A DNA stretch of 64,000 bases from Flavobacteriaceae bacterium (lineage in GTDB: Bacteria; Bacteroidota; Bacteroidia; Flavobacteriales; Flavobacteriaceae), in NCBI GenBank assembly GCA_028280265.1, contig JANQMD010000013.1, positions 27,744 through 91,743 on the forward strand, read 5' to 3'. Positions within the stretch are counted from its first letter, which is position 1. Each line of letters starts with the position of its first letter. A program made the position numbers and the translations under genes. Below the pieces are notes generated by a model, which was not told the origin of the DNA, did no database searches, and was given only the letters and a program-made list of their open reading frames with translations. This document shows, one piece after another, positions 681 through 6,419 of this stretch.

Positions 681-755
681 ATGAGAATCGTCAATACAAA
701 TACATCAAAGCAGTGGATTTCTACAATCCATAGCCGGGTAATGTATGTGTTTTGA
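681..755 (+). CDS. putative 24-aa leader peptide upstream of MFS transporter
   Basis: ATG..TGA: MRIVNTNTSKQWISTIHSRVMYVF; lies directly ahead of an intrinsic terminator whose 5' arm it can pair with. Confidence 0.4.
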   Translation: MRIVNTNTSKQWISTIHSRVMYVF

Positions 756-784
756 TGATATAGAAATAAGATCTATCAATACAG

Positions 785-818
785 AAAGTCCGGCTATTTA
801 GCCGGACTTTTTATTTTA
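785..818 (+). terminator. intrinsic terminator / candidate attenuator
   Basis: AAAGTCCGGCT-ATTT-AGCCGGACTTT followed by T-rich tract, located before the MFS start codon. Confidence 0.75.
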
Positions 819-843
819 TAATAACTCTCAATCAACTAAAAAA

Positions 844-2639: not shown

Positions 2640-3065
2640 TTAGTTTTTACGGATCTCTGCCTGTCGCATAGGCATACTATCAATTAAGACGAATAGCTTT
2701 TTCGATGTCAGCAGTTTTGTTTGCCGGAGTTTGATACCGCCATCCAAGCCAATGAGAACGATTTCAAAGTTGTCTTCTTTCTTTTTCATATCCACATAAA
2801 TTGTGTTTGATGGAGGAGCAATGGTGCTTTCAAGTCCTTTTTTGTAGCTGTTAGGCATGATCTGATATACAACAAGTTTTCGCTCCTTCAATCCATTAAC
2901 ATCCTTTTTGAGAAGTTGAAGCTGACTTTCAATTTTCGAAAAATTATCACTCAATACCAACAAAACTCGATCTTTCCATTCGTGTTTGGTGATGTCTTGT
3001 GAAAATGAAATGCCAGCACTAAAAAGTACCAGCATTCCAAAAAATAGGTTTTTCAAAAAACGCAT
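2640..3065 (-). CDS. DUF4174-like protein
   Basis: signal peptide; HEWKDRVLLVLSD...LIGLDGGIKLRQT...IDSMPMRQAEI typical of DUF4174. Confidence 0.65.
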   Translation of the reverse strand: MRFLKNLFFGMLVLFSAGISFSQDITKHEWKDRVLLVLSDNFSKIESQLQLLKKDVNGLKERKLVVYQIMPNSYKKGLESTIAPPSNTIYVDMKKKEDNFEIVLIGLDGGIKLRQTKLLTSKKLFVLIDSMPMRQAEIRKN

Positions 3066-4987
3066 TATTTCAAAACGGTAAATTCAATACTAGAATCTGC
3101 AAAAACCGTATGTGTTTGGGTTTTAAAATCTTTCTCGTCCGCTTTGTAGATATTGTCTACATAGGTTTGAGGATTCAGATCAATCAATGGAAACCAAGTA
3201 CTTTGCACTTGGATCTGTAGTTTATGCCCTTTCTTAAACGTGTGAAAAACATCCTGTAGCTTAATATTTACATTCGTTTTTTTATTAGGAGTAAAGGGTT
3301 TTGGCTTGCTGAAACTGTTTCGGTAGCGTCCTCGTAACACCTCACTTCTTACCATCAAATGATAGTTGCTCATTTTTAGATGATCTTGCAACTCATCATT
3401 GTTTTCTTCAGCATCTACGGGATGCACATCAATGACTTTGACAATCCAATCGGCAGCAGTTCCCGTAGTAGCGACTTTTAACTTGGCTAAAATATCTCCA
3501 GTCAAAGTGAGGTCTTTTTCCAATATATCAGTTTCAAAAACCAATACATCGGGCCTTCTTGCTGCAAATCGTTGATCATCAGTCATGTATTTTCGAGGAG
3601 TAAATACCGTTTTAATATCTTCAGAGTAAGGTACAGGACGCTTGATGTCACTGATAAAACGGATACCTTTATTTGATTTTTTTGTCGAAGTCAACTCTTG
3701 ATTTTCAGATAAAAACATCTCTTGTTTGGTAGCATTTTTTGGAGGCCAAGAATCATAAGATTTCCACTCTTTTCTACCCGAATCATATACATAAGCTTCA
3801 GGAAGTCCAGCATTTTTAGAACCATCTCCTTTTAAGAAATGATTGAAAAACTTCGTTTCTACATCGTCCTGAAAATGAATGGAGATAGAATCTCCAAAAT
3901 AATAGTTTCCTACTGCATTTCGTTTACTTCTTCTTGCCCATCTTCCATGATCCCAAGGACCAAAAACCATAATATTGTAATTATCTGGATTGTGCTTTTC
4001 TATACCCTTGTATGTCTCTAGAGGACCGTATAAATCTTCGGCATCGAACCAACCACCAACGACCATGGTAGCAACAGTAGAAGGGACTTTGTCTAAATGC
4101 TGAATGATTCCTTTGCTTTGCCATACTTCATCATAATTTGGATGTTCGGTAATCTCTTTCCAAAAGAAATCATCTACTTTATCCTCGCTCTTGGGGTTGG
4201 CATTGTCCAGCTTTTCATATTGAAAATATTTGTTTAAGTTCTTCAACGGACCAGCATCTAAGAAAAACTGATACTGATCTTGTGTTCCTAAACTAGGAAG
4301 TGAATACCAGGCTGTATCTGTGGGCGAATCTTTATAAGTGCCAAACAAAGAAATTGCTCTAAAATAACTTAACAAAAAAGCTCCGTTGTGATGAAAATCG
4401 TCGAAATAGAAATCGCCAATACATGCCTGTGGCGAAGAAGCCTTCAAAGCAGGATGAGCCTCTACGGTTGAAGTGGTTGCATAATGACCAGGATAAGAAA
4501 TTCCCCATGTTCCCACTCGACCATTGTTGTTTTCTACATTGTTAATCAGCCAATCAATGGTATCATAAGTATCCGAAGATTCATCAGTTTGTGTCGAGTC
4601 TTTTTTATTCGGAATAAAAGCCCGCATATTGTCATAAATTCCTTCACTCATCCATCGCCCTCTTACATCCTGATAAACGATGATATTCCCTTCTTTCATT
4701 AAGTTCACATTCGGACCTATGTTGGATTTCATTTGCCCTTGCCCATAAGGTCGAGAACTGTACGGAGTTCTTTGCATTAAGATGGGGTATTTTTTACTCT
4801 TGTCTTTAGGAGAATAAATAGTGGTGTGTAGTTTTACACCATCTCTCATGGCAATATCTACTTCTTGTTTGGTGTAATTGTCTTCTACAAAAGTGTCTTT
4901 GGAGTTTTCGCTAACTTTTTCCTCAGTTGGATTACAACCGAAGAGTACCAATGCACTTAAAAGTAAAAAAGGTAGAATGTTTTTCAT
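3065..4987 (-). CDS. CocE/NonD family hydrolase (X-Pro dipeptidyl-peptidase-like), lipoprotein
   Basis: MRDGVKLHTTIYSPK..PILMQRTPY, GTWGISYPGHYA nucleophile elbow; start placed at MKNILPFLLLSALVLFGCN rather than the track start at 5194. Confidence 0.88.
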   Translation of the reverse strand: MKNILPFLLLSALVLFGCNPTEEKVSENSKDTFVEDNYTKQEVDIAMRDGVKLHTTIYSPKDKSKKYPILMQRTPYSSRPYGQGQMKSNIGPNVNLMKEGNIIVYQDVRGRWMSEGIYDNMRAFIPNKKDSTQTDESSDTYDTIDWLINNVENNNGRVGTWGISYPGHYATTSTVEAHPALKASSPQACIGDFYFDDFHHNGAFLLSYFRAISLFGTYKDSPTDTAWYSLPSLGTQDQYQFFLDAGPLKNLNKYFQYEKLDNANPKSEDKVDDFFWKEITEHPNYDEVWQSKGIIQHLDKVPSTVATMVVGGWFDAEDLYGPLETYKGIEKHNPDNYNIMVFGPWDHGRWARRSKRNAVGNYYFGDSISIHFQDDVETKFFNHFLKGDGSKNAGLPEAYVYDSGRKEWKSYDSWPPKNATKQEMFLSENQELTSTKKSNKGIRFISDIKRPVPYSEDIKTVFTPRKYMTDDQRFAARRPDVLVFETDILEKDLTLTGDILAKLKVATTGTAADWIVKVIDVHPVDAEENNDELQDHLKMSNYHLMVRSEVLRGRYRNSFSKPKPFTPNKKTNVNIKLQDVFHTFKKGHKLQIQVQSTWFPLIDLNPQTYVDNIYKADEKDFKTQTHTVFADSSIEFTVLK

Positions 4988-5156
4988 AAGGGAAAATTTT
5001 AATTTCTTTCTCGATAAAAATACGGATTGTTTGTGAGATCTTACTTCAGAATCTCTGGCATTTTTTAAGAACCGCAAATAACACTGAATTGTATTATGTG
5101 TAATTTTACAAGTGTTAAATTTAGTTATTGTTGATATTTTTGCCTTAAATTTAAGA

Positions 5157-5184
5157 TTGCTTAAAAATTTAACAAGTACCTTTG
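5157..5184 (+). promoter_or_regulatory. Bacteroidota-type promoter (TTG-N17-TACCTTTG)
   Basis: -7 element TAnnTTTG at 5177-5184, TTG at 5157-5159. Confidence 0.45.
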
Positions 5185-5210
5185 TAGGGAACAAATCAAT
5201 CTTAAATATT

Positions 5211-5660: not shown

Positions 5661-6419
5661 ATGCTAAAGAAAGTACTCATGAACCGAATTTTGATTTTGT
5701 TGGTGATATCATGTATGATGTCCTGCATTTCTAATGAGAAAAACAAAACACAAGAAAAGGCAAATACTCAAAAGAGTACTCCAGAGATAAAGCCGAATAG
5801 GTATAATGTTGCTTTTTTAATCATGGATGGAACATTTAATACAGAGCTTACAGCTCCCTATGATATTTTCCAGCACACGATTTTTAGAAAAGGAATCAAA
5901 CCCATGAATGTGTTTACTGTAGCTGATACAGACGAGCCTATTGTCACATTTGAGGGAATGCGCATTCTTCCTGATTTTAATTACTTGAAAGATAGTTTAC
6001 CCAGGATTGATATTCTGGTTGTACCCAGTGCAGAACATCATTTAGATTCTGATTTAGAAAATACACAGATGATCAATTTTGTAAAGAGAGTAGGAGACGA
6101 AGCCCAATTTGTTACCTCGCATTGCGACGGAGCTTTTGTGTTGGCGAAAGCCGGTTTGTTAAATGGAAAAGTATCGACGACATTTCCGAGTGATATTGAT
6201 AAAATGAGAGCAATGTTTCCAGATTTAGACATTCGTAAAGAAGTTTTATTTGTTCATGATGGAAATACCATTACATCTGCAGGTGGCGCTAAATCCTTTG
6301 AAGCAGCATTGTATTTGTGTGAATATTTATATGGACCTGAAATTGCGAGAAGCTTGGCAGGAGGCTTGGTGATCGATTGGAAGTTAGAAGAAGTTCCACA
6401 TTTGATTTTAAATGATTAG
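5661..6419 (+). CDS. DJ-1/PfpI family protein, lipoprotein
   Basis: lipobox VISCMMSC; nucleophile elbow FVTSHCDGAFVLAKAG; TSAGGAKSFEAAL. Actual start may be Met at 5679. Confidence 0.8.
   Translation: MLKKVLMNRILILLVISCMMSCISNEKNKTQEKANTQKSTPEIKPNRYNVAFLIMDGTFNTELTAPYDIFQHTIFRKGIKPMNVFTVADTDEPIVTFEGMRILPDFNYLKDSLPRIDILVVPSAEHHLDSDLENTQMINFVKRVGDEAQFVTSHCDGAFVLAKAGLLNGKVSTTFPSDIDKMRAMFPDLDIRKEVLFVHDGNTITSAGGAKSFEAALYLCEYLYGPEIARSLAGGLVIDWKLEEVPHLILND

Follow-up and report, generated by a model that had tools for sequence, protein, structure and literature searches.

The question raised by this locus is why the gene of an MFS transporter should be preceded by a short upstream open reading frame (uORF) and an intrinsic terminator, a signal that would end the transcript before the coding sequence is reached. 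An earlier note, made from the letters of the window (the whole 64,000-nt stretch of Flavobacteriaceae DNA analysed here), proposed that the leader is a ribosome-mediated attenuator, and this reading is supported by a conserved uORF, a terminator, an antiterminator exclusive with it and a predicted upstream promoter. We conclude that the leader is very probably a ribosome-mediated transcription attenuator of an MFS exporter gene. The features on which the argument turns are the following.

648-655, + strand: predicted sigma-A -7 box TAGCTTTA (consensus TAnnTTTG), placed by box position across leaders
681-755, + strand: uORF of 24 codons, putative regulatory leader peptide MRIVNTNTSKQWISTIHSRVMYVF, conserved with the MFS gene at ~100 loci
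687-705, + strand: 5' arm of the end-to-end stem (off state; anti-antiterminator), from the centroid fold, the recoding test and pairing across 64 leaders
713-731, + strand: small inner hairpin, common to the two predicted folds
730-738, + strand: 5' strand of the antiterminator, inside the uORF, pairing with 789-797 (recoding test 1%)
741-759, + strand: partner arm of the end-to-end stem (3' side), running across the uORF stop codon (centroid fold; homologous stem in other leaders)
783-818, + strand: intrinsic terminator, its 5' arm 789-797 being the antiterminator partner (terminator search, conservation)
844-2058, + strand: MFS drug/H+ antiporter-like transporter, the regulated gene (Pfam MFS_1, E 7.7e-52)
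2055-2432, + strand: VOC-fold (glyoxalase/bleomycin-resistance) gene (Pfam PF00903), overlapping the MFS stop codon

The elements that the earlier note had read from the letters are all present: the 24-codon uORF at 681-755 exactly as claimed, the terminator at 785-810 with its T-tract upstream of the MFS gene, the MFS ATG at 844, and ATAGCCGG (730-737) as the exact 8-base complement of CCGGCTAT (790-797). The terminator, with 13 pairs, is the sole one found in 300-1200 (shuffles gave a mean of 0.3). The gene upstream, at 201-581, lies on the opposite strand, so the terminator does not belong to it and serves the uORF-MFS transcript instead. Taken as a whole, the leader (660-820) folds with z = -6.4, and 0 of 200 shuffles were equally stable. 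In 88 of 91 leaders a TAnnTTT[GA] box is found 26-40 nt 5' of the uORF ATG, where shuffles gave 15 on average and 26 at most; consensus and spacing agree with the -7 box published for flavobacteria, which lies at -12 to -5 (PMC9723704). In the window, transcription is predicted to start at about 660, some 20 nt 5' of the uORF; the note had named a start downstream of 755 as evidence against its reading, and the predicted promoter (-7 box 648-655) lies instead upstream of the uORF.

Matches to the MFS gene came from 24 of 38 relatives; among 300 family genomes, 176 had one at E <= 1e-60. Tenacibaculum, Polaribacter, Psychroserpens, Winogradskyella, Wenyingzhuangia, Hyunsoonleella, Robertkochia and Lutibacter are among the named relatives. 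Conservation of the uORF in such homologs, on which the attenuator reading depends, extends to about 100 loci. At 99 loci a uORF of 22-28 codons stands upstream of the orthologous MFS gene, its stop codon mostly 34-43 nt before the loop of a terminator with the consensus AAAGTCCGACT..AGTCGGACTTT; the leader nearest to that of the window is L060 (MRNVNTYNCKQWISEVHGRAIYVF). The bearers are flavobacteria, mostly marine. In an order-wide sample every occurrence at E <= 1e-5 fell within the same family; L018, a locus of another family, carries a diverged form. The leader is absent from the Aquimarina and Flavobacterium orthologs that were fetched, and five Aquimarina MFS orthologs (L108, L111, L112, L113 and L118) stand without it, so regulation must differ there. 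Two uORFs are shortened, to 18 aa in L103 (MKTVNSYKPKQQLVGIMF) and 17 aa in L075 (MSIISTYFSKVTFAYIN), both upstream of an MFS gene and with the terminator kept; these natural deletions could reveal dispensable parts.

We built a covariance model from 10 leaders, leaving out the window's genus group (no Tenacibaculum leaders), and it recovered the window leader at 66 bits. Across the 300 family genomes 89 of its 90 strong matches fell directly upstream of the MFS gene family, and the leader is therefore dedicated to that family. For 81 of the 90, a listed MFS match follows on the same strand at a distance of 14-216 nt (median 53); eight of the remaining nine likewise precede an MFS gene, in one case as no more than a partial match. 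For the ninth, in genome G162, the 7 kb on each side contain no MFS gene, and the terminator is mismatched; this orphan copy (L147 and L167; G162:C4:25122-25263), which scores 111 bits, looks like a relic decaying after gene loss. The window's own genome carries a single strong copy. Weak R1 matches away from MFS genes (~44 bits and below, in G183, G253, G038, G326 and G155) look like lone terminators and were set aside.

How such a leader might switch is suggested by two exclusive folds. In the off fold (the centroid) the two ends of the uORF pair, 687-705 with 741-759, enclosing the hairpin at 713-731, and the terminator forms; in the on fold the segment 730-738, just after the small hairpin, pairs with the terminator 5' arm at 789-797. 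The earlier note had cast the hairpin TGGATT-TCTAC-AATCCA (714-730) as the element that blocks the antiterminator. The hairpin exists, but it is drawn in both predicted folds and coexists with the antiterminator, so it is not the competitor; in the modelled folds that role falls to the longer stem 687-705/741-759. We then held each peptide fixed and drew synonymous codons from the same family. For the window, such recodings matched the observed end-to-end stem in only 1% of trials and the observed antiterminator duplex likewise in only 1%, and across leaders the uORF (off) fold was in the best 5% for 61% and the antiterminator (on) fold for 73%. Both exclusive folds are favoured beyond what the peptide requires.

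The leaders are related by descent, so that statistics on their folds and conservation are not independent of one another. A structural alignment of 64 leaders, which leans to the off structure, had 87% of cells paired in the off structure versus 36-45% when slid, with 81-89% in the end-to-end stem and 98.7% in the terminator. For the antiterminator, a helix outside the model, 81.5% of cells were paired versus 34-40% when slid, and the helix homologous to 730-738/789-797 of the window reached 84.9%; the complementarity of 730-737 and 790-797 is conserved in homologs. Of the covariation that the earlier note suggested looking for, the retention of both pairings across leaders was borne out, but two-sided change in the antiterminator is modest (15 cells versus a shuffle mean of 8; 3 of 500 shuffles), which counts against the attenuator reading and is explained by a terminator arm that seldom varies. 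L110, L059 and the window have changed terminator arms, and in each of them the uORF segment fits its own arm better than the usual arm. RNAalifold on a raw MAFFT alignment of 57 leaders found the terminator only, since uORF gaps put the arms out of register; a near gap-free subset of leaders and the covariance model overcame this. A second antiterminator helix, which would pair the end of the uORF with the 30 nt preceding the terminator, stands out in one leader group but is weak in the window; it was no better than synonymous recoding and is not claimed.

To relate the folds to translation, we masked a ribosome footprint at each uORF codon and computed the probability of the antiterminator. 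With the P-site at codons 1-12 its mean probability was 0.83-0.87, and with the ribosome at codons 16-24 it was 0.03-0.2; the model gives antitermination for P-sites 1-13, and the on/off boundary falls at codon 13-15 in 81 of 88 leaders. In this model the position of the ribosome decides the fold, such that early stalling would turn the gene on and passing ribosomes would turn it off. When no ribosome is placed on the leader, the equilibrium model does not decide between the folds (antiterminator 0.60 in the window, 0.74 on average). This counts against the attenuator reading: for the off state to arise without translation, the RNA would have to be trapped kinetically in the end-to-end stem, as we assume.

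From the anatomy and conservation established by comparison we infer the following course of stalling, readthrough and induction. Transcription would begin about 20 nt before the 24-codon uORF. If the uORF is not translated, its ends would pair (687-705/741-759), hindering 730-738, and the terminator would form. Under normal translation, ribosomes past codon 14 and up to the stop codon would cover 730-738, again giving termination. A ribosome stalled or slowed in codons 1-13 would break the end-to-end stem and free 730-738, which could then pair with 789-797 and block the terminator, allowing transcription of the MFS exporter gene and its VOC partner. The likeliest inducer would be one or more ribosome-targeting antibiotics, which we consider reasonably probable.

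The same RNA mechanism could, however, answer to another signal, with the uORF sensing a shortage of Thr, Lys or Trp and the MFS protein handling a related compound. The layout is that of trp-type leaders, at least two Thr occur in residues 4-14 in 79% of leaders, and leaders of this kind have been reported before amino-acid operons of F. psychrophilum, where there are clues for amino-acid leader attenuation (PMC9723704). Yet no single amino acid is common to every leader, tandem repeats of any residue occur in at most 10%, and Trp is found in only 42%, never twice; no run of codons for one amino acid was found in the stall region across leaders. The gene, moreover, is exporter-like rather than biosynthetic, and the match to Bacteroid-trp (Rfam RF01692) scores 24.2 bits (E 1.7) against a gathering threshold of 49 bits. 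We regard amino-acid sensing as unlikely. Less likely still is a riboswitch-like leader that binds a ligand or protein, with the uORF incidental. Alternative folds and a terminator are conserved, as such a leader would have them, and the end-to-end stem is long, but an open frame of conserved length is kept throughout, with synonymous changes at the conserved K and Q codons, whereas the invariant unpaired core typical of riboswitches is absent and nothing in the leader matches Rfam at the gathering threshold. The conserved peptide and strong terminator might also mark the uORF as a functional small protein gene with a terminator of its own, the MFS gene being served by readthrough or another promoter. 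That we find the least credible reading: the leader accompanies the MFS gene in 89 of 90 strong matches and decays without it, the RNA pairing goes beyond the peptide's needs, and the terminator is complementary to a strand of the uORF.

Returning to the attenuator, we asked what in the peptide might cause stalling. Set against shuffled bases, codons 2-13 encode an excess of W (6.2x), C (3.0x), T (2.4x) and Q (2.0x), with D, E and P (0.05-0.08x) and L (0.24x) scarce. The rows are related, which inflates the composition z-scores, and the same codons are under constraint from base pairing. The composition departs strongly from chance and is nearly acid-free. The conserved T-Y...K-Q-(W/C) residues fall within the permissive stretch of the masking model, and the conserved K and Q are retained through synonymous codon changes; composition and synonymous conservation together suggest nascent-chain specificity. 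The macrolide motif R/K-x-R/K occurs in the stall region of just 1% of leaders, and no known drug-arrest motif was found in the leader peptides, which counts against the attenuator reading. It is conceivable, and we propose it only tentatively, that the uORF encodes an arrest peptide of a new, drug-dependent class peculiar to Flavobacteriaceae, rich in Thr, Lys, Gln, Trp and Cys, nearly free of Asp, Glu, Pro and Leu and with a K-Q-W/C core. Such a peptide would stall ribosomes when an inhibitor, either a known one or a natural marine one, is present, and its motif would differ from those of macrolide leaders.

The layout had been likened to that of resistance and efflux genes in Firmicutes; the likeness in mechanism stands, whereas the host here is a Tenacibaculum-like flavobacterium. 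The bmrB-bmrCD leader of Bacillus subtilis, likened here by layout and not by sequence, also has a translated uORF, alternative stem-loops and a terminator before a multidrug exporter, and senses 50S inhibitors when ribosome slowing gives readthrough; it differs in its Firmicute host, its 53-codon uORF and its ABC transporter (PMC4191407). In rli80-hflXr of Listeria monocytogenes, induced by lincomycin and erythromycin, a short uORF likewise overlies an anti-antiterminator, followed by an antiterminator and terminator, but the uORF has 14 codons with the RLR macrolide motif (absent here) and precedes a ribosome-splitting factor gene (PMC6310831). The streptococcal mef(E)/mel leader shares transcription attenuation before an MFS exporter gene (PMC4335068, PMC5418344), but is macrolide-specific, Gram-positive and on mobile elements, and the tetQ leader of Bacteroides CTnDOT shares drug sensing and the phylum, but acts by translational attenuation on a ribosome protection gene (PMC5418344). 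The uORF toiL of Escherichia coli senses several classes of ribosome inhibitor, stalling being effective at several codons, but it unmasks a ribosome-binding site and affects Rho termination, with no intrinsic terminator/antiterminator pair (PMC12121999).

No Rfam family covers the MFS-linked leader (sub-threshold matches on both strands to STnc50, MicC and others cluster on the terminator hairpin and were rejected), and we found no published description of it in the open-licence literature. The leader family is real, widespread, of a known switch kind and apparently undescribed. If the attenuator reading is true, a large environmental family that initiates without Shine-Dalgarno pairing senses ribosome stress through transcription-translation coupling and so induces a chromosomal exporter. 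The leader could then report natural ribosome inhibitors in the sea, inducible intrinsic tolerance in the leader-bearing groups would be explained, and some 100 natural variants would be at hand for dissecting the possible arrest peptide.

The regulated gene and its neighbours are compatible with such a role. The MFS protein has weak matches to drug-efflux models and to the NorA and VMAT structures, and by these matches it is of the drug/H+ antiporter kind and exporter-like. The VOC-fold gene, probably in the same operon, directly adjoins the MFS gene in 45 of 115 loci. In 20 loci a DJ-1/PfpI-like protein is encoded downstream. PADLOC found nothing. Together, the MFS, VOC and DJ-1/PfpI context fits an inducible tolerance operon and points to no particular drug. 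In the window the VOC-fold gene and a DJ-1/PfpI-like lipoprotein gene (5661-6419) have a CocE/NonD-type peptidase gene (3065-5194, other strand) between them; in several relatives the lipoprotein gene directly follows the MFS or VOC gene. At one further locus (L010, 4120-4193, - strand) the Rfam Flavo-1 RNA, a motif of unknown function, was found downstream of the MFS gene at 73 bits.
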